From assembly GCA_012727675.1 (NCBI GenBank), contig JAAYGR010000048.1:1-33787 (forward strand): a stretch of DNA of 33,787 bases. The letters run 5' to 3'. Below are positions 178 to 11,220 of the stretch, piece by piece; position 1 is the first letter of the stretch; every line of letters starts with the position of its first letter. Below the pieces are notes generated by a model that was given only the letters and a program-made list of their open reading frames with translations, was not told the DNA's origin and did not search any database. The translations under genes were made by a program, and so were the position numbers. This DNA comes from Bacillota bacterium. Lineage in GTDB: Bacteria; Bacillota; Limnochordia; DTU087.

Positions 178-1875
178 ATGATGGAGGCAAATAATACCCT
201 TCTACAGGTACAAATTGAAGGCCTAGGTAGCCGGCAGGTAAAGCCGGGGACCACCCTTCAGGAGCTGGCCAAAGACTGCTGGCCTGACAGCTGGCCGCGG
301 ATTCTAGCAGCCTATGTAGATAATGATCTTCGGGAACTGACTTATCCCATAACTAAGGGCTGCAGTATTTCCTTTTTTGGACTGGAAGTCAAGGATGGCT
401 ACCGGATATATCAAAGAAGTGCTGTGTTTTTACTGATCCGGGCTGCCCGGGAAGTTTTGCCTGGATGCAGGGTGATTATCGAACACTCCCTCAGTAACGG
501 CCTTTACGGCGAGATCCACTGCCAGAGGGCATTGGTGAAAAAGGACGTGGAGGCTATCGAGGCGAGGATGAGGGAGATCGCCTCCCAGGATGAGCCCTTT
601 GAGAAGCTTGTCCTGCCTAAAGAAGAGGCCATGGAGCTCTTTGCCAAGGACGGTCAGTATGATAAGGTAAACCTAATGAAATACCGGCAGTCGGATACTG
701 TTAATGTCTACCGCTCCGGGTGGTTTCATGACTATTTCTACGGTTACATGGTTCCCAGTGCTGGGTACCTAACGAAGTTTCGACTCCATTATTACCTGCC
801 GGGCTTCATCCTGCAGATCCCCGACCCCGACAATCCTGATCGGATTCCGCCTTATCGGGAGCAGCCAAAACTTGCCAGTGTCCACCGGGAGGCGGAGCAG
901 TGGGCCAAAATCCTGGATGTCGAGACAGTAGGAGCTTTAAACGACCTCATTGTCCAGGGAAAGAGCGGAGAGTTAATTAGAATCGCTGAGGCTCTTCATG
1001 AGAAGAAGATTGCCCAAATGGCAGACATGATCCATGGCCGCCACGACACCTTGAGGGTTATTCTGATCGCCGGCCCTTCATCTTCAGGGAAAACAACCTT
1101 TGTTCAGCGGCTGTCGGTTCAGCTGCGGGTCAACGGCTTAAGGCCTGTGGCGATTCATCTCGATGACTATTTTCTCGATCGGGAAAAAACCCCAAAGAAT
1201 GAACACGGCGAATATGATTTCGAGAGCATTGAAGCCATTGATCTGGAGCTGTTTAACACCCATCTTGCACAGCTGATCCAGGGTGAGGAGGTAGAGATTC
1301 CAACCTTTGATTTCACCAGCGGACGGCGGGTTTACACCGGCAAGCGCCTGCGGGTTGATCAGGGTCAGCCTATCATTATCGAAGGTATCCACGCCTTGAA
1401 TGACCGCTTGACGGCATCAATTCCCAGCGGCAATAAATTTAAGATATACATTAGCGCTCTAACACAGCTGAATATCGATCATCATAACAGAATTCCCACC
1501 ACTGACGGCAGGCTCCTGCGGCGGATAGTGCGGGATCATCAGTTCCGGGGACATTCAGCCCCTGATACCCTGCGCCTCTGGAGAGCTGTCCGCCGGGGGG
1601 AGAAGGAGAACATCTTCCCCTTCCAGGAAGAAGCCGATGTGATGTTCAATTCTGCCCTGCTCTATGAGTTTGCAGTGCTCAAGCAGTTTGCTGAGCCTCT
1701 CCTTCAGACCATCGGCCAGGAGGACCCGGGCTACAGCGAGGCCAAGCGGCTCCTGAAGTTTCTCAGTTATTTCTTGCCGCTGGATCCAGACGATGTACCG
1801 CCTACTTCTATACTGAGAGAGTTTATTGGGGGGAGCTGTTTCGAAGAAACAATCTCGGTAGCGAACGAATCCTAA
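178..1875 (+). CDS. Uridine kinase-like nucleoside kinase with N-terminal TGS/ThrRS-like domain
   Basis: ORF 109..1875; likely start ATG 178 (or 181) after ACGGAGG. N-terminal TGS-like region; P-loop GPSSSGKTTF, HLDDYF, IIEGIHALN as in the Udk/PRK family. Confidence 0.85.
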   Translation: MMEANNTLLQVQIEGLGSRQVKPGTTLQELAKDCWPDSWPRILAAYVDNDLRELTYPITKGCSISFFGLEVKDGYRIYQRSAVFLLIRAAREVLPGCRVIIEHSLSNGLYGEIHCQRALVKKDVEAIEARMREIASQDEPFEKLVLPKEEAMELFAKDGQYDKVNLMKYRQSDTVNVYRSGWFHDYFYGYMVPSAGYLTKFRLHYYLPGFILQIPDPDNPDRIPPYREQPKLASVHREAEQWAKILDVETVGALNDLIVQGKSGELIRIAEALHEKKIAQMADMIHGRHDTLRVILIAGPSSSGKTTFVQRLSVQLRVNGLRPVAIHLDDYFLDREKTPKNEHGEYDFESIEAIDLELFNTHLAQLIQGEEVEIPTFDFTSGRRVYTGKRLRVDQGQPIIIEGIHALNDRLTASIPSGNKFKIYISALTQLNIDHHNRIPTTDGRLLRRIVRDHQFRGHSAPDTLRLWRAVRRGEKENIFPFQEEADVMFNSALLYEFAVLKQFAEPLLQTIGQEDPGYSEAKRLLKFLSYFLPLDPDDVPPTSILREFIGGSCFEETISVANES

Positions 1876-2090
1876 GTAAGAATAAGAATGATTTAATATA
1901 AATGTTACATTTCCCGGCAGGATTCTTCTCCTTCACCAGGAATATATTAGCAAAACGTAGTCATTCCTAACAAGGTATCGTTACTGAAAAGTTACAATGA
2001 CTATTACCATCCATGGTAAATAGAGACTGCGCCGGAAGGAGTCAACGACTTGTCGCTAATCGGAAGAACCTGAGGTGAAGGAGGGATAGA

Positions 2091-2864
2091 ATGCTGGCAC
2101 TGGAAGAGGTCTCCTACAGAAAGCTCTCGTACAGGAGAGATAAAGAGTTGGTGACCAAGTATCTGGCATTGTATGAGAAGAACCGGTCCCCGGAGCTACT
2201 AGAGCTCCTGGTAGAGGCTTATTGGGAATTGGTGGAATACCTGGCTGGTAAGTTTACTCAGGATAGACAGATGCGAGAGGATCTTGTTCAGGTAGGGGGA
2301 ATCGGGCTAATCAAGGCCCTGCAGCGGTTCGACAGCAGTCGGAAAGTCCAGTTCGTCACATATGCTACACCAACCATTATCGGGGAGATCAAGAGGTATT
2401 TAAGGGACAGTACCTGGAGTTTAAAGGTCGGCCGAGATGCAAAGCGGCTCTATTACCAGATTGAAGAGGCTAGGGCATACCTTTCCAGCAAGTTGGGCAG
2501 AGCCGTTACGATGAAAGAAATTGCCGAGTGGCTGGGTATTGAAGAGGAAAAGCTCCTGGAAGCCTATGAGGCAGGTCCCAATCGTGTATCTACTTCCCTC
2601 CAGCAGGAAAGCAGCGGCGACGAGATGGTGTTGGAAGATTTCCTAGGAGATACCGATGATGATTACGAAGCAGTAGAGAATCGTTTGCTGATTAGAGGCT
2701 TAATCGGTACTCTACCGCAGCGGGAACGCCAGATTCTTTACTTACGGTATGTCGAAGGATTGTCCCAAAGCCTGGTAGGTGAAATGCTCGGGATATCCCA
2801 GATGCATGTTTCTCGGCTTGAACGAAAGGCGCTAGGGAAGCTGCGGCGAGCCAGCTCCTCGTAA
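2091..2864 (+). CDS. RNA polymerase sigma factor, SigB/SigF/SigG family
   Basis: GGAGG RBS; DLVQVGGIGLIKALQRFD, FVTYATPTIIGEIKRYLRD (region 2) and LPQRERQILYLRYVEGLSQSLVGEMLGISQMHVSRLERKAL (region 4). Confidence 0.88.
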   Translation: MLALEEVSYRKLSYRRDKELVTKYLALYEKNRSPELLELLVEAYWELVEYLAGKFTQDRQMREDLVQVGGIGLIKALQRFDSSRKVQFVTYATPTIIGEIKRYLRDSTWSLKVGRDAKRLYYQIEEARAYLSSKLGRAVTMKEIAEWLGIEEEKLLEAYEAGPNRVSTSLQQESSGDEMVLEDFLGDTDDDYEAVENRLLIRGLIGTLPQRERQILYLRYVEGLSQSLVGEMLGISQMHVSRLERKALGKLRRASSS

Positions 2865-2888
2865 GAGTATAGACTTGGAATCAGCTGA

Positions 2889-2915
2889 AGCCAGGGTTTG
2901 CAAACCCTGGCTTTT
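2889..2915 (+). terminator. Intrinsic terminator after the sigma factor gene
   Basis: Perfect inverted repeat AGCCAGGGTTTGCAAACCCTGGCT followed by TTT. Confidence 0.75.
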
Positions 2916-2948
2916 GCACTAGTTGGAACCGTAAACTTCCAGTTTTAA

Positions 2949-2957
2949 TGGTATAAT
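2949..2957 (+). promoter_or_regulatory. Putative extended -10 promoter for the patatin/pur operon
   Basis: TGGTATAAT (TGn-TATAAT) in the intergenic region after the terminator; no convincing -35. Confidence 0.4.
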
Positions 2958-3009
2958 AAGTGGTAGTGATAGAAGCACATTTGACAAAATATGGCAGGAC
3001 AGGAAAGCT

Positions 3010-3037
3010 CCTGGCTTAGTAAACCTGGCTTAGTAAA
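3010..3037 (+). repeat. Perfect 14-bp tandem duplication
   Basis: CCTGGCTTAGTAAA repeated twice head-to-tail (3010-3023, 3024-3037). Confidence 0.9.
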
Positions 3038-3066
3038 GGGGTGGAGTCTGGCTGGTAGATAAACGG

Positions 3067-3834
3067 TTGGGATTAGCCTTAGGGGGAGGGGCTGCCAGGG
3101 GGATTGCCCATCTAGGCGTCCTTCAAGTCCTGTGGGAGCAGGGCATTCCCATTGGTGCCATTGCCGGTACCAGTGCCGGGGCCGTGGTGGGAGCACTTAT
3201 CGCTGCAGGTTTTTCCCCTTCTGAGCTCATAGAAATTGCCAAGTCCAGCAACTGGTGGTTCCTGGCCCGAGGCGTATCCCTAAGAACAGGTTTGCTTCAG
3301 TCTTCTGGAATAGAGAGATGGCTGGGCCGTTATCTAAAGGGCAAGAGCTTTGCGGAGTTGGATACCCCGCTGGCGGTGGTGGCTTCAGACTTAGTCAGGG
3401 GCGAGACAGTGGTCTTGAGCCAAGGGGATGTGGCGTTGGCAGTTCGGATAAGCTGTACTGTTCCCGGCATCTACGCACCGGTGGAGCACCACGGGCGATA
3501 TTTAGTTGATGGCGGATTGACGGAAAATGTCCCCGTTGACACTGCCCTTCAGATGGATATCGATGGGGTTATCGCGGTCAGTCTCAATGGTTCCTTCCTA
3601 GACGGGGAAAAGCCGGAACGCCCAGCCGATGTAATACAGCAGGCCATCAGCATCCTGCAGAGGGCCCATGTCGAGAAACAGCTGGGTAAGGCTGACTTGG
3701 CGATTGTGCCGGATTTAGGCGGCTTGGGCCTAACGGATTTCCACGCTGTAGATGAGTTTGTGCGGCTCGGCCGGGAGGCAATGGAGCAGGCTTTGCCAAA
3801 ACTGGGATTATTGCTGGAGAAAGGGAATCTATGA
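3067..3834 (+). CDS. Patatin-like phospholipase family protein (RssA-like)
   Basis: GLALGGGAARGIAHLGVL, GTSAGAVVGAL (GxSxG) and DGGLTENVPV (catalytic D-G). Start uncertain (TTG 3067; SD is ~20 nt upstream). Confidence 0.88.
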   Translation: MGLALGGGAARGIAHLGVLQVLWEQGIPIGAIAGTSAGAVVGALIAAGFSPSELIEIAKSSNWWFLARGVSLRTGLLQSSGIERWLGRYLKGKSFAELDTPLAVVASDLVRGETVVLSQGDVALAVRISCTVPGIYAPVEHHGRYLVDGGLTENVPVDTALQMDIDGVIAVSLNGSFLDGEKPERPADVIQQAISILQRAHVEKQLGKADLAIVPDLGGLGLTDFHAVDEFVRLGREAMEQALPKLGLLLEKGNL

Positions 3835-4379
3835 CTATGAACGGAGCAAAAGCGAAAAATAATTCTCTGATTGGTGTAGTGATCGGCAGTGACAGTGATC
3901 TACCGGTAATGGCCTCTGGTCTGGAACTCTTGGATGAATGGGGGGTACCCTTTGAGGTAAAGATCTTATCAGCTCATCGGACCCCAAAAGAGGCGGCGGA
4001 TTTTGCGCAGACTGCCGCAGAGCGGGGACTTAAAGTGATTATCGCGGCGGCGGGCATGGCAGCCCATCTGCCGGGGGTTCTCGCTGCTTATACCCATTTA
4101 CCGGTGATCGGGGTGCCCATCGCCAGCGGTCACCTTAAGGGAATAGATGCTCTGTATTCCATAGTACAAATGCCTCCAGGCATACCGGTGGCGTCGGTGG
4201 GAATCAATGCCGGAAGGAATGCAGCAATCTTAGCTGTTGAAATACTCAGCTTGACTGATCCTACTTGGCAGGATAAGCTAGATATGTACAGAAAGAAACA
4301 AGCAGAGGCAGTCTTGGATAAGAACGCGAGACTAGAGAAGTGCGGCTTTAGGGCATACCTAGATGGCGGGCAGCCCTAG
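3831..4379 (+). CDS. purE: 5-(carboxyamino)imidazole ribonucleotide mutase (class I PurE)
   Basis: VVIGSDSDLPVM, SAHRTPKEA, AAAGMAAHLPGVLAAYTHLPVIGVP; 4-nt ATGA overlap with the upstream ORF. Confidence 0.95.
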   Translation: MTMNGAKAKNNSLIGVVIGSDSDLPVMASGLELLDEWGVPFEVKILSAHRTPKEAADFAQTAAERGLKVIIAAAGMAAHLPGVLAAYTHLPVIGVPIASGHLKGIDALYSIVQMPPGIPVASVGINAGRNAAILAVEILSLTDPTWQDKLDMYRKKQAEAVLDKNARLEKCGFRAYLDGGQP

Positions 4380-4433
4380 AGCTCCGCAGCAAGTTGGATT
4401 GCCACTGGGAGTTAAAACTACATATTCATGGAT

Positions 4434-4580
4434 GAAAGTGCACCTAGGGTTCCGCCGCAGCTGACGGGTCTGGACCGAGTGGTGCAGGCACTGACCGAAA
4501 GGGTCAGCGCTACACCGTAGAAGGATAAAAGCCTGGGCGGGTAGGTTTCACGATAATTTGTGCAACCTACCCATTTTTTT
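4434..4580 (+). promoter_or_regulatory. ykkC-class riboswitch, probably the PRPP-sensing subtype, with expression-platform terminator
   Basis: CTAGGGTTCCG ... CTGGACCGAG ... ACCGTAGAAGGATAAAAGCCTGGG matches recalled ykkC-class landmarks (GGGUUCCG; CUGGUCCGAG; ACGG..GGAUAAAAGCC.GGG). ACCTA (4443-4447) can pair with TAGGT inside the downstream terminator arm. Lies directly upstream of purL. Confidence 0.85.
4539..4580 (+). terminator. Intrinsic terminator of the purL leader (riboswitch expression platform)
   Basis: GGGTAGGTT-t-CAC ... GTG-c-AACCTACCC stem followed by A then seven Ts. Confidence 0.88.
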
Positions 4581-4656
4581 CAAGACCAGGTTGGGTTTTC
4601 AGAGAAAACGATGAGTCTGGAAAGAAGCAGCAACATCCGAGAAGGAGGTAGGGGCA

Positions 4657-6894
4657 ATGACAGCCGACAAGTCCAAGCGTTGGGAAGATGCAGGGCTTAC
4701 CGCAGAGGAATATGGGATGATTGAGGATGCCCTTGGGCGGGAGCCCAATGATCTGGAATTGGCGCTGTTTTCTGTCATGTGGTCAGAACACTGCGGATAC
4801 AAGTATTCCCGGGCACTGCTTAAGAAGCTGCCGACTACCGGTAGTCAAGTGCTGCAGGGTCCCGGTGAGAATGCAGGGATTATTGATATTCAAGATGGAC
4901 AGGCAGTAGTTATGAAGATTGAAAGCCACAACCACCCTTCGGCAGTTGAGCCCTACGCCGGTGCTGCCACAGGGGTCGGCGGTATACTCAGGGATATTTT
5001 CACCATGGGGGCTAGGCCGGTGGCTGGTTTGAATTCCCTCCGTTTTGGTCCACTGACTGATTCCCACCAGCGGGAACTGTTGACTGGGGCGGTGGCCGGC
5101 ATGGCCGACTACGGCCGTACTTTCGGTATTCCCATGATCGCAGGCGAGGTCTATTTTGATGACTCATACAGTGAAAACTGTCTGGTTAATGCCATGGCTG
5201 TCGGTTTCTTGGATAAAGGCGACCCAATTGCCAAGGGAATTGCCGCTGGTGTCGGCAATGTAGTAATGGCTGCAGGAACACCAACGGGCCGGGACGGTAT
5301 CGAAGGTGCTGCCTTTGCATCAGTAGAACTCACCGAGGAAGCCGCCGAAAGAAAGGCTGCAATACCCAAAGGATATCCAGAAATGGGAAAACGCCTTATG
5401 GAAGCCTGCCTGGAGGCCATTAAGGCCGGTGTTTTGGTGGGCATTCAAGATATGGGAGCAGCGGGCCTAACCAGTTCTGCCTGTGAAATGGCCGCCAGGG
5501 GCAAGCACGGCATTGAGCTGGATCTTAGTTTGGTCCCTGTGCGGGAGCCGGATATGACGCCCTACGAAATCATGCTTTCTGAGACCCAGGAGCGGATGCT
5601 GTTTGTGGTGAAGGCCGGTGAAGAAGAGGCGGTTCAGGCCATCTTCGACAAATGGGATGTGCCTCTAGCTGTAATAGGTAGAGTAACCGATGACGGTCTT
5701 CTGAGGCTGAAGGACGGCGATGAGGTGGTGGCTGAGGTCCCCGCTGAGGCTCTGGCCGATGCACCTGTTTACCATCCTGCTGCCCGGCGTCCAGATTATT
5801 TGGATGAAACGGAGAGCTTTGACCTTGCTGCCGTTGCCGAACCTGATGATTACGGCAAGGTGCTCCTGAAACTGTTGGGTTCACCAAATATCTCCAGCAG
5901 GGAATGGATCTTTGAGCGGTTTGACCACCAGGTTGGCGGAAATACCCTTTCGGTAGCCGGCCTTACCGGGGCAGGAGTCATTGGGATCAAGGATAGCGAT
6001 AAGGCCGTTGCCTTTAGTGTAGACTGTAACTCCCGCTTGTGTTATCTGGGTCCCCGTACCGGTGCAGCTGCTGCCGTTGCCGAGGCTGCTAGGAATCTAG
6101 TCTGTACCGGGGCTAAGCCATTGGCTGTTACCGACGGTCTAAATTTCGGCAGCCCGGAAAAACCGGAGATCTATTGGCAGTTTTCCGAAACCATCGGCGG
6201 TATCGCTGAAGCTTGCAAAAAGCTAGATACGCCGGTAATCGGTGGTAATGTGTCGTTTTACAATGAGAGCAAAGGAAAAGCGATTTATCCTACGCCCATA
6301 ATTGGAATGGCAGGCCTCATCGATAACAAAGCAAACATCTGCACCCAGAACTTCAAGAAGGCCGGAGACGTCATTGTACTGCTGGGAGAGAATAAGGGTG
6401 AGCTGGGCGGGAGTGAATATCTCAATGTTATCCACGGCCTAGTGGCTGGGCGCCCGCCTCAGCTTGATCTGGAACTGGAAAAGCGGGTTCAGGATTTGTG
6501 CCTTGCTGCTATCCGGGAAGGATTGCTGAGTTCCGCCCATGACTGCAGTGAAGGCGGCTTGGCTGTGAACCTGGCCGAATCCTGCATTCTCGGCAGCTTA
6601 GGAGCTGAAGTAACCTTGGAGGACCAGGAACTGTCCCCTGCCCAGCTGCTTTACGGAGAAAGCCACAGCCGCATCGTGGTATCACTGGCACCTGAGCATC
6701 TAGGTAGGCTGCAGCAGCTGGCAGAGGAGTTTAGTGCTCCCTTGACTGTAATCGGGAAAGTCCAGGAGGGGAATCTGCAGATCCAAGCAAGAGCCCAGAC
6801 TGGAGAAGATACCGATCAGGTGCTAATCGATCTGCCGCTGCAAGAATTAGAAGCGGCTTGGCGGAGGGCTATTCCATGTCAAATGGAATCTTGA
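4657..6894 (+). CDS. purL: Phosphoribosylformylglycinamidine synthase II (short, PurSQ-dependent form)
   Basis: 745 aa; [50 protein letters not shown]-type RBS. Confidence 0.96.
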
Positions 6895-8303
6895 GATTGG
6901 CTGAGAAACACCCAGATAAGCCCCGGGAAGCCTGTGGGGTTATAGGGATCTGGGGCGAGAACCAAGATGTGCAGGTTGTGCATCTGTGCTATCTGGGTTT
7001 ATATGCCTTGCAGCATCGGGGACAAGAAGGGGCCGGCATCGTAACCTTTGATGGGCAGGAAATGCGGCTTTACAAGGGTGCCGGCCTTGTGCCGGAGGTT
7101 TTCGATGAAGACAATCTAGCGGAGCTGGAGGGTTTTGCGGGACTCGGCCATGTGCGCCTGGCAGCCAAGGGAGAGAGACATGTGGTCAATACCCAGCCTT
7201 TCCTGGTGAGATCATCCTACGGTAGTCTCGCTGTTGCTCAGAACGGGAGTCTCATAAACGGCAGCGAGCTTCGGGAGAGGCTCTTACAAAAGGGTACCGT
7301 TTTGCAGACCGACAGCGACTCGGAGGTGATCCTCAATCTTATTGCCCAAAGCGGTGAGGAAAGCCTGCCGGCAGCAGTTGCAAGAACTTTGGAGCTCATC
7401 GAAGGTGCCTACGCCCTGGTAATCCTCGGAGAGGATATGCTGCTGGCTGCCAGGGACCCTTGGGGAAATCGCCCGCTAACCCTGGGCAGGGTGGAACAGG
7501 GTTATATGGTAGCCTCCGAGTCCTGTGCCATCGCTAACCTAGGCGGAGAGGTAATTAGAGAAGTTGAGCCTGGAGAACTCCTGATTTTAGACTGGTCTGG
7601 ATGGCGCACGTACAGACAGCAAAGTGCAGACAGGAAGGCACTGTGTTCCTTTGAACATGTATATTTCGCCCGCCCAGACAGCTGCATTGGCGGGAAGAAT
7701 GCCTATCTTGTCCGTAAGGCCATCGGCAGAGAACTGGCCAGGGAAGCACCTGTTAATGCCGATGTAGTTATAGGTGCTCCTGATTCGGGAGTTGCTCCGG
7801 CCCTGGGTTTTGCGGAGGAGGCGGGTCTGCCCTTTGAGATCGGTGTGATCAAGAACCGCTATGTGGGACGAACCTTCATGCGGCCTACCCAAGCAGACAG
7901 ACGGACAGCGGTGAGGATCAAGCTGAACCCCGTGGTTGATGTCCTGCAGGGGAAGCGGGTAGCAGTCGTTGATGACTCTATTGTCCGGGGGACAACTTCC
8001 GGTAAACTGATTGCTTTGCTGCGGGAAGCTGGTGCCCGGGAAGTACACATGTATGTGGCTTCGCCTCCATATCGTTTTCCCTGTTTCTACGGCAATGAGC
8101 CTTCATCCAAGAGCGAACTGGTGGCTTCGGGTCGGACCCTTGACCAGCTTAAGGATCTCATCGGCGCTGATTCCCTGCACTATATTTCCATTGATGGGCT
8201 GGTAAGAGCCATCGGTATCCCCCGGGATCAATTGTGTGTTGCTTGTTTTACAGGCGAATACCCCATTACTCCAGCCAACTATCGGAGGGAAGAGGATGGA
8301 TAA
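6876..8303 (+). CDS. purF: Amidophosphoribosyltransferase
   Basis: ORF 6858..8303; ATG 6876 preferred (GGAGG at 6863-6867). Short propeptide then [31 protein letters not shown]; overlaps the end of purL. Confidence 0.95.
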
Positions 8304-9327
8304 GAGTACGTATAAAGCATCGGGTGTGGATATTCAAGCAGGTTACGAGGTGGTGCGCCGGATAAAGAAGCACACCGAATCCACCTTCCGACCTGAGGTG
8401 CTCAGCAACATCGGCAGTTTTGGTTCCTTTTTTGCCTTGGATACTTCCAAATACCGGGAGCCGATACTAGTCGCCGGTACTGATGGTGTGGGTACTAAGC
8501 TAAAGATAGCTTTTATGATGGACAAGCACGATACCATAGGTATCGATGTGGTAGCCTACTGTGTCAATGACATCATCTGCCAGGGGGCAGAACCGCTGTT
8601 TTTCCTGGACTACTTGGCTGTGGGCAAGAACTACCCAGAGAAGGTTGAGAGCATTATAGCGGGGGTCGCCGAGGGCTGCCGCCAGGCCGGCTGTGCCCTT
8701 GTGGGCGGTGAAACCGCTGAGATGCCGGGATTTTATCCGGAGGATGAGTATGATCTGGCGGGGTTTGCTGTAGGTGTTGTGGAAAAATCCCGGTGTATAA
8801 CAGGGCAGCAGGCCAAGGCGGGGGATGTGGTCATCGGCCTGGCCTCCAGCGGTCTGCAAAGCAGCGGGTTTTCCCTAGTTAGGAAGATTTTCTTCCACGA
8901 TCATGACTATAAGGTCACAGATCATTTTGATGAGTTGGGCCGCACCCTGGGGGAAGAGCTCCTGGAGCCAACCCTCATCTATGTTAAGCCCATTCTCAGC
9001 TTGATCGATGCCGTTGACGTTACCGGTATTGCCAACATCAGTGGGGGTGGAATACCGGAGAACATACCTAGGTCTATGCCTGATAATTTGGATGCGGTAA
9101 TCCGCAAGGGCAGCTGGCCGGTACATCCCATTTTTGCCGTTCTTCAGCGCTTAGGCGAAGTTGAGGAAACTGAGATGTATAACACCTTTAATATGGGTAT
9201 TGGCATGGTGGTTATCGTAAAGCGTGATCATGCAGATAAAGCTCTAGACAAGCTGGCCGAGTGGGGAATTGAGGCGTATATCATAGGTGAGCTGGTGCCT
9301 GGCCAGGGGAAAGTTGTTTTTGGGTAA
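8296..9327 (+). CDS. purM: Phosphoribosylformylglycinamidine cyclo-ligase
   Basis: ORF 8236..9327; start ATG 8296 ([20 protein letters not shown]); GTDGVGTKLKIAF, VGGETAEMPGFY. Confidence 0.95.
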   Translation: MDKSTYKASGVDIQAGYEVVRRIKKHTESTFRPEVLSNIGSFGSFFALDTSKYREPILVAGTDGVGTKLKIAFMMDKHDTIGIDVVAYCVNDIICQGAEPLFFLDYLAVGKNYPEKVESIIAGVAEGCRQAGCALVGGETAEMPGFYPEDEYDLAGFAVGVVEKSRCITGQQAKAGDVVIGLASSGLQSSGFSLVRKIFFHDHDYKVTDHFDELGRTLGEELLEPTLIYVKPILSLIDAVDVTGIANISGGGIPENIPRSMPDNLDAVIRKGSWPVHPIFAVLQRLGEVEETEMYNTFNMGIGMVVIVKRDHADKALDKLAEWGIEAYIIGELVPGQGKVVFG

Positions 9328-9340
9328 GGGGGAGTAATGA

Positions 9341-9946
9341 GTGGGACGGTTGGCGGTCTTAATTTCTGGGCGGGGGTCCAATTTGCAGGCTCTCATTGAC
9401 GCTATAGCCGCTGGCAAACTGGATGCGGAAATTGCCACTGTCATCAGTGACAGGGCCGATGCCTTGGGATTGGATAGGGCAAGGCGGGCCGGTATCCCTA
9501 CCCAGGTCCTTCCTTGGCTGGGCAAAAAGCGGCGGGATGAGTATTTCCAAAACCTGCAGAGACTCCTGGAGGAAGCCGATGTGGAGCTTGTGGTGTTGGC
9601 AGGGTTTATGCGGCTTCTCCCCAAAGAGCTGGTGAGGGCCTTTCCTCAGCGGATTATCAACATCCATCCCTCACTCCTGCCGGCCTTTCCTGGGCTAGAT
9701 GCCCAGCGGCAGGCTTTGGAGTACGGAGTAAAGGTCGCTGGATGTACCGTACATTTTGTCGATGAGGGAATGGATTCGGGACCCATCATTGTCCAGAAGG
9801 CCGTACCGGTGTATGACTATGACACTGAGGAGTCACTGGCAGAACGGATCTTGGCCAAAGAACATGAAGCTCTACCTCAAGCTGTTGCGCTGGTATTGAG
9901 CAAACAGTGGCAGATACGGGGGCGAAAAGTCGTATGCAAGTGCTAG
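9341..9946 (+). CDS. purN: Phosphoribosylglycinamide formyltransferase
   Basis: GTG start after GGGGGAG; LISGRGSNLQALID, INIHPSLLPAFPG, GCTVHFVDEGMDSGPII. Confidence 0.95.
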   Translation: MGRLAVLISGRGSNLQALIDAIAAGKLDAEIATVISDRADALGLDRARRAGIPTQVLPWLGKKRRDEYFQNLQRLLEEADVELVVLAGFMRLLPKELVRAFPQRIINIHPSLLPAFPGLDAQRQALEYGVKVAGCTVHFVDEGMDSGPIIVQKAVPVYDYDTEESLAERILAKEHEALPQAVALVLSKQWQIRGRKVVCKC

Positions 9947-11220
9947 TTGTAGGCAGCGGCGGCAGGGAACATGCCATTACGCTGAAGCTTGTGCAGAGTC
10001 CAAAGGTAGACGCAGTATGGTGTTATCCAGGGAATGCCGGCATGGCTCAGGCAGCCCGGATCCCCAAACTAGATAGTTCCGACGCCAATACCTTGGCTGA
10101 ATTTGCCGAAGGTCAAGGCATTGATTTGACCATTGTGGGACCGGAAGGGTACCTGGCAGAGGGGATCGTGGATGTCTTTCGTTCTAGGGGACTGTGTATA
10201 GTCGGCCCCAGCCAGTCTGCTGCCCGAATCGAAAGCAGCAAAGTCTTTGCTAAGGGACTTATGGAGAAGTACGGGATACCTACAGCAGCCTATCGGGTCT
10301 TCAGTGAATACCAAGAAGCCAAGGGGTATATCGAAGAAATGGGAGCACCCATTGTGATCAAAGCCGATGGCTTAGCGGCCGGCAAAGGAGTAGTAGTGGC
10401 AGAGGATGTGGAAACCGCTTTAGAGGCAGTTCGGGTTACCCTTTCTGGCCAGCGGGTGGGAGAAGCCGGCAGGCGCATCGTAGTAGAAGAGTTCATGGAA
10501 GGTCAAGAAGTATCAATCCTCGCGCTCTATGACGGGAAGACCTGTGTGCCGCTGGTGCCCAGCCAGGATCATAAGGCTGTGGGTGATGGAGATCAGGGGC
10601 CCAATACCGGCGGCATGGGGGCTTACAGCCCTGTGCCGGTGGTAGATGAGGCTTTACAGCGGGAGATCTGCCAATCCATCCTGCTTCCCACCCTGGAAGC
10701 TCTGCATAAGGAAGGGGTTACCTACACAGGGGTGCTTTACGCAGGGTTGATGCTGACAAAGGCCGGCCCTAAGGTGGTAGAGTTTAACTGTCGCTTCGGT
10801 GATCCTGAGACCCAGGCATTGATGCCTAGGCTGAGGACAGATTTGGCTGAGGTGCTGCTGGCTGTTGGTGAAGGACGCCTGGCTTCGCTGCCACCTTTGG
10901 AGTGGGATCCCAGGGCTTGTGTTTCCGTTATAGCTGCATCCCAGGGATATCCCGGTCCCCATGATACTGGTTTTCCCATTGTGGGTCTGGATGCAGTAGA
11001 GAAGATGGATGATGTTTTCGTGTATCACGGAGCAACTGCCCTCCGGGGTGATGAGATCGTTACTGCCGGGGGCCGGGTACTCAGCATTTCTGCCTTGGGT
11101 GATGATATCCAAGGGGCAAGAGATCGAGCCTACGAGGCAATTGCGAAGCTGGATTTTGAAAATATGTACTATAGAAAGGATATCGCCTGGAGAGCTCTAG
11201 ACCAAGGAAAAGTGGACTAG
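9934..11220 (+). CDS. purD: Phosphoribosylamine-glycine ligase
   Basis: ORF 9907..11220; start ATG 9934 (MQVLVVGSGGREHAI); ATP-grasp features KADGLAAGKGVVVA, NTGGMGAYSPVP. Confidence 0.95.
   Translation: MQVLVVGSGGREHAITLKLVQSPKVDAVWCYPGNAGMAQAARIPKLDSSDANTLAEFAEGQGIDLTIVGPEGYLAEGIVDVFRSRGLCIVGPSQSAARIESSKVFAKGLMEKYGIPTAAYRVFSEYQEAKGYIEEMGAPIVIKADGLAAGKGVVVAEDVETALEAVRVTLSGQRVGEAGRRIVVEEFMEGQEVSILALYDGKTCVPLVPSQDHKAVGDGDQGPNTGGMGAYSPVPVVDEALQREICQSILLPTLEALHKEGVTYTGVLYAGLMLTKAGPKVVEFNCRFGDPETQALMPRLRTDLAEVLLAVGEGRLASLPPLEWDPRACVSVIAASQGYPGPHDTGFPIVGLDAVEKMDDVFVYHGATALRGDEIVTAGGRVLSISALGDDIQGARDRAYEAIAKLDFENMYYRKDIAWRALDQGKVD

Follow-up and report, generated by a model that had tools for sequence, protein, structure and literature searches.

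A probable singlet PRPP riboswitch in the purE-purL gap of a Limnochordia family

Introduction

The closest described system is the singlet PRPP riboswitch. One example is the switch of H. modesticaldum purB, for which PRPP-ON control of termination has been measured (PMC5912903). The bases that set the related aptamers apart have also been described. PRPP aptamers (ykkC subtype 2b) carry an extra end helix, P0, and position 96 is a G in more than 97% of them. In ppGpp aptamers (subtype 2a) it is not a G but, when present, reportedly an A, C, or U. Subtype 2 has a pyrimidine at position 49, where guanidine aptamers have an A. Position 101 is a purine in more than 75% of the class. A UAGG stretch lines the ligand pocket in the crystal structure (PMC6031431).

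Here we describe an aptamer in a 33,787-nucleotide stretch of DNA (the window; contig JAAYGR010000048.1 of assembly GCA_012727675.1) from an uncultured Bacillota bacterium of the class Limnochordia. It shares its class, singlet form, terminator platform, purine genes, and phylum with the singlet PRPP riboswitch of H. modesticaldum (PMC5912903). It differs from that type in its position, which is after purE and before purL and not at the head of the cluster. With the T. mathranii PRPP aptamer (PMC6031431) it shares the 5' end UGAAAG, the 3' end UAGGUUUCA, P0, G96, C75, the pyrimidine at 49, and the contact bases. Compared at the two ends, the window has C instead of A at 98, G instead of A at 101, and U instead of C at 94.

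The scaffold is shared with the ppGpp riboswitch, which lacks G96 and is associated with amino acid genes (PMC6031431). The Guanidine-I riboswitch (RF00442) has the same P1-P2-P3 scaffold but, unlike the window, has an A at 49 and lacks P0 and the conserved 3' extension. The tandem guanine-PRPP riboswitch contains the same PRPP aptamer together with a guanine aptamer, which the window lacks. The switch is a further representative of a known riboswitch class, and its position alone is unusual. A literature search retrieved no paper linking Limnochordia with riboswitches.

Identity of the aptamer

The aptamer was recognized with two covariance models. The Rfam model RF00442 (Guanidine-I) matched within 4380-4660 with 62.2 bits (E 5.2e-11; Rfam cmscan) over its full length (1-107). 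It is the sole Rfam family with a significant match to the aptamer. Because this match lies 0.8 bit below the gathering score of 63, a scan of the window at default Rfam thresholds listed no match. Two of the 11 family aptamers miss the same threshold. The second model, R1, is of the PRPP type and was built from 31 diverse aptamers of other lineages, with the window's family excluded. Its single match in the window was 4433-4550, with 81.6 bits and an E value of 1e-19, and this was also its single match in the entire 2.19-Mb genome. The matches place PRPP riboswitches in a family of the Limnochordia, where the default threshold of Rfam can miss them.

The initial annotation had assigned 4434-4580 to the ykkC class and had proposed an Rfam search as a check. 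Both models support the class, and the RF00442 match is significant and full length, though below the gathering score. The element is real, and its span was redrawn as an aptamer at 4433-4550 and a terminator at 4539-4580 (Table 1).

A score a little under the Rfam cutoff might also be expected of a decayed, nonfunctional aptamer whose terminator alone still works. This is extremely unlikely, since every diagnostic and contact base is intact. When relatives from the family and the class are aligned, the conserved blocks are invariant, and the P1b and P2 loops are variable.

Table 1. Coordinates of the riboswitch and neighboring features in the window
Feature	Position	Strand	Evidence
Terminator-like hairpin GCCAGGGTTTGCAAACCCTGGC + TTTT after sigma factor gene (2091-2864)	2890..2915	+	Sequence, RNAfold
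Candidate extended -10 promoter TGGTATAAT before patatin-like gene and purE	2949..2957	+	Consensus match only
Patatin-like (RssA-type) phospholipase gene, overlaps purE by 4 bases	3067..3834	+	PF01734, E 1.3e-32
purE, upstream of switch	3831..4379	+	TIGR01162, 199 bits, above cutoff
Weak promoter-like TTGCCA-16-CATATT abutting aptamer; probably not a promoter	4399..4426	+	Promoter scan; not conserved genus-wide
PRPP-type ykkC (subtype 2b) aptamer	4433..4550	+	RF00442, 62.2 bits; PRPP model R1, 81.6 bits
P0 5' strand TGAAA (A5 = 4437, then G6 = 4438)	4433..4437	+	Same as T. mathranii UGAAAG (PMC6031431 primers); RNAfold
P1 5' strand TGCACC	4439..4444	+	P1 covariation (121 aptamers, 97.9% paired)
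Position 49 = U, pyrimidine setting subtype 2 apart from guanidine aptamers (A)	4480	+	Rfam consensus alignment; rule of PMC6031431
P1 3' strand GGTGCA	4481..4486	+	RNAfold, P1 covariation
P2 hairpin	4487..4511	+	RNAfold; P2 covariation in alignment A2
P3 region with GGATAAAAG loop; C75-A-C-C78 = 4513-4516	4512..4542	+	Rfam alignment, RNAfold, model R1
G96, predicted to select PRPP over ppGpp	4536	+	Gapless alignment to T. mathranii 3' end from primers
Ligand-contact bases R101, (U102), A103, G104, G105	4541..4545	+	T. mathranii alignment; contacts from PMC6031431
P0 3' strand TTTCA	4546..4550	+	RNAfold; model R1 alignment
Intrinsic terminator: stem 4539-4547/4564-4572, inner stem 4549-4553/4558-4562, then T4574-T4580	4539..4580	+	RNAfold
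purL ribosome-binding site GAAGGAGGT	4641..4649	+	Sequence
Regulated genes purL 4657-6894, purF 6858-8303, purM 8236-9327, purN 9341-9946, purD 9907-11220	4657..11220	+	NCBIfam equivalogs

Gene neighborhood

The gene upstream of the switch matches TIGR01162 (purE), and the gene downstream (4657-6894) matches TIGR01736 (purL). This confirms the placement between purE and purL given in the initial annotation. The annotation had also seen no guanine aptamer in tandem. In agreement, the purine (guanine) riboswitch model RF00167 had no match in the window or in the whole genome.

The gene at 2091-2864 encodes a SigB/SigF/SigG-type sigma factor and in every family member directly precedes the patatin-purE pair. 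In one genome (G006; L006:1-1395) the patatin-like phospholipase and PurE are encoded in a single open reading frame of 464 amino acids, which appears to be a fusion. The product of the gene at 109-1875 is ThrRS-like in its N-terminal part and also has a uridine-kinase/phosphoribulokinase domain. This gene is conserved upstream of the sigma factor gene within the family.

Ligand specificity

Base numbering was anchored by the G96A primer of PMC6031431. The primers in that paper show how the T. mathranii PRPP aptamer begins and ends (UGAAAGUGUACC... and ...GGACAAAAGCCCGGGAGGAUAGGUUUCA). The ends in the window (TGAAAGTGCACC... and ...GGATAAAAGCCTGGGCGGGTAGGTTTCA) align with them without gaps, which fixes U49 at 4480 and G96 at 4536 and shows that the contact bases are present. 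C75, the possible partner of G96, is C4513. The other contact bases are A5 (4437), G6 (4438), G48 (4479), C77 (4515), and C78 (4516) by alignment. R101, A103, G104, and G105 fall at 4541, 4543, 4544, and 4545, so that all published contacts are present.

The RNA almost certainly senses PRPP, judging from these bases. The pyrimidine at 49 argues against a guanidine aptamer, and the G at 96 points to PRPP over ppGpp by what is an empirical rule. G96 is conserved in 24 of 24 loci that were found with RF00442 and thus independently of G96. These loci alone count for G96, which is fixed by construction in the sequences from the pattern scan.

The PRPP subtype had been proposed before, with the call resting on gene context. 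The subtype holds, since the pyrimidine at 49, G96, P0, and the contact bases match the T. mathranii aptamer. Inspection of the specificity position gave G4536, the PRPP type. The call is independent of gene context, because the diagnostic bases can be read in the sequence itself.

The consensus sequences of subtypes 2a and 2b are nearly identical (PMC6031431), and a ppGpp riboswitch that chances to precede purine genes would resemble this element. We consider this very unlikely. Position 96 is G and not A, C, or U, and it is retained in all the loci found without using it. Purine genes also lie downstream of the switch almost everywhere. A Guanidine-I (subtype 1) riboswitch would account for the sole significant Rfam match, but this reading can be practically dismissed. 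Position 49 is U and not A, the aptamer has both P0 and the conserved 3' extension, and no guanidine-related gene adjoins it. The PRPP-type model also scores 19 bits above RF00442.

Fold of the aptamer

Folded alone with RNAfold, 4433-4550 forms a P0/P1/P2/P3 four-way junction, as in the described crystal structure. The terminator prevails once the 30 downstream bases are added (4433-4580). The five variable pairs of P1 are 97.9% paired over 121 distinct aptamers. They contain 110 compensatory cells, compared with at most 35 in 500 shuffles, which ignore sequence kinship. Pairing falls to 22 to 46% when the P1 partner is slid out of register. P2 and the outer P0 pair (pair 1) also covary in an alignment outside the family, with kinship uncorrected. 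P0 of an order-level relative (L012) is AGGAA/TTCCT.

The initial annotation had drawn P1 as a helix of ACCTA (4442-4446) with TAGGT (4542-4546). We rejected this helix. It can be paired on paper in 116 of the 121 aptamers, a count that is no evidence because one strand is fixed by the search pattern in the collection set. It has no support from covariation, since both strands are near-invariant. Each strand also has another role. In the known fold, ACC (4442-4444) belongs to P1 and pairs with GGT (4481-4483), the UAGG of the other strand lies along the ligand pocket in the crystal, and P0 closes the aptamer.

Terminator and proposed mechanism

The terminator hairpin (4539-4572) has a predicted energy of -20.0 kcal/mol (RNAfold) and is followed by 7 T. 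Its 5' arm (4539-4553) includes the 3' strand of P0 (4546-4550) and contact bases 101-105. Therefore, the bound aptamer and the terminator should be mutually exclusive, and this reuse of P0 and contact bases suggests a PRPP-ON transcription switch. The ON direction is taken by analogy from the riboswitch class. The element is very probably a PRPP riboswitch of the singlet form (ykkC subtype 2b), controlling whether transcription passes from purE into purL-purF-purM-purN-purD. Transcription into these genes probably goes on only when PRPP is plentiful. An ON switch acting through an intrinsic terminator had been annotated, and this part stands with another helix: the terminator would compete with P0 and the pocket instead of with P1.

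At high PRPP, the nascent RNA would fold P0-P1-P2-P3 about PRPP and its metal ions. The segment GGGTAGGTTTCA (4539-4550) would be kept in the pocket and P0. The terminator would be blocked, and the polymerase would enter purL. At low PRPP, GGGTAGGTTTCA (4539-4550) would supply the 5' arm of a strong hairpin with U7 behind it, and transcription would end before purL. Lying upstream of the switch, purE would be outside the gate.

Transcript context

The sister genera and the window genus differ in the gap between purE and the aptamer. In six of six sister-genus genomes the gap contains a promoter-like site of the extended -10 type, TTGCRC-17-TATAAT (with TTGCAC or TTGCGC), 35 to 44 nt upstream of the aptamer. 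Given this site, the switch in these genera is most likely at the head of a transcript of its own. The site is absent from the gap in all five window-genus genomes. There, purE ends 53 nt before the aptamer (20 nt in L152).

In the window genus, which lacks TTGCRC-17-TATAAT, transcription therefore probably reaches the switch by read-through from a promoter close to 2949-2957. TATAAT boxes upstream of the patatin-like gene recur in relatives from this genus. Most likely, one transcript would begin at about 2965, cover the patatin-like gene and purE, and be gated before purL. We give an even chance to the view that a promoter between purE and the riboswitch was lost in the window genus, leaving an intra-operon gate. 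Under this gate purE would be independent of PRPP, and purLFMND on the same transcript would be expressed only at high PRPP. The position inside an operon given by the initial annotation agrees with the gene order, but six sister-genus genomes of the 11 have a strong promoter-like site before the switch. Since the window genus alone lacks that site, the switch is plausibly intra-operonic only there.

The switch might instead head a separate purLFMND transcript from a weak promoter of its own at 4399-4426. We consider this rather unlikely, although it matches what the promoter-like sites of the six sister-genus genomes indicate for those genera. It would be compatible with the PRPP ligand and the mechanism and concerns the transcript only. 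The candidate, TTGCCA-16-CATATT, is the only promoter-scan match in 1850-4700 and is unchanged in L160. However, it is within chance (1 found versus 2.5 expected in shuffles; shuffle P about 0.08). A start from it would sit at the extreme 5' end of P0. In L152, L156, and L157 the candidate is either missing or degraded. Being within chance and not kept in the whole genus, 4399-4426 is probably not a promoter, and we retain read-through from the region of 2949-2957 as the preferred source of the transcript.

Position of the switch in relatives

The order purE-[switch]-purL was found in all 11 family genomes examined, with the aptamer at the orthologous site. The patatin-like gene was recognized before purE in 10 of the 11 and the sigma factor gene further upstream in all of them.

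Wider context came from a pattern scan of named genomes, which is a sample and not a census and gave 111 aptamers among the matches listed. The next recognized gene was purE in 56 of these 111, with a permease gene just upstream in 3 of the 56. It was a xanthine/uracil-type permease in 28. The switch lay between purE and purL in 7 of the 111 listed, all with the gene order of the window's family, and between purE and purB in 2. Elsewhere in the sampled genomes the usual place of the switch is at the head of the cluster, ahead of purE or a permease. Other arrangements in the same class are [switch]-purE-purL or purE-purK (f7), [switch]-purE-purB (f6), [switch]-purL (f3), and [switch]-purM (f5). 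The position of the switch thus shifts within the pur cluster among the permease, purE, and the purE/purL gap. Pattern matches in Calothrix, Luteolibacter, Chlorobiota, Planctomycetaceae, and one betaproteobacterium were rejected as chance, with the rest of the aptamer missing.

PurL partners

All 11 family genomes encode PurL at the switch locus and PurH. The PurL of the window is the small form, with 745 amino acids. A PurL of that length usually functions together with PurQ and PurS (PMC3261824). PurQ was not recognized in any of the 11 family genomes with TIGR01737 or PF13507, each of which was positive in 14 of 14 controls. PurS was likewise not recognized in the 11 with TIGR00302 (12 of 14 controls). 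PurQ and PurS were both absent from another genome of the class with adjacent purE and purL (G016). Either the family PurL uses free ammonia or an unrecognized amidotransferase serves it. A PurL without its usual partners may make the locus useful for studying nitrogen donation in purine synthesis.

Unusual aptamers in other genomes

Compact PRPP-type aptamers without the GGTTCCG...CTGG form that P1a/P1b takes in the Rfam consensus were found in L019, L020, L021, and L024 and in many sequences of alignment A2. P0, G96, and the contact bases are intact in these aptamers (e.g., CTAGGGCGCAAGTGATGTCCAAGCG). The four named scored 37 to 48 bits with RF00442 and 84 to 90 bits with the PRPP model.

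In L012, L013, and L024, which are order and class relatives, a guanine aptamer and a PRPP aptamer stand in tandem. In L013 (L013:1501-1610) a tandem guanine-ykkC element lies before a nucleoside-phosphorylase-like gene. Its 3' part deviates (GGAAGGATTGGTTTC), with A at 97, 98, and 101 and U at 103. It possibly binds another ligand.

L086 and L135 each contain two PRPP aptamers about 0.9 to 2.3 kb apart within one purine locus. An RF00167 guanine aptamer precedes three of these four PRPP aptamers.
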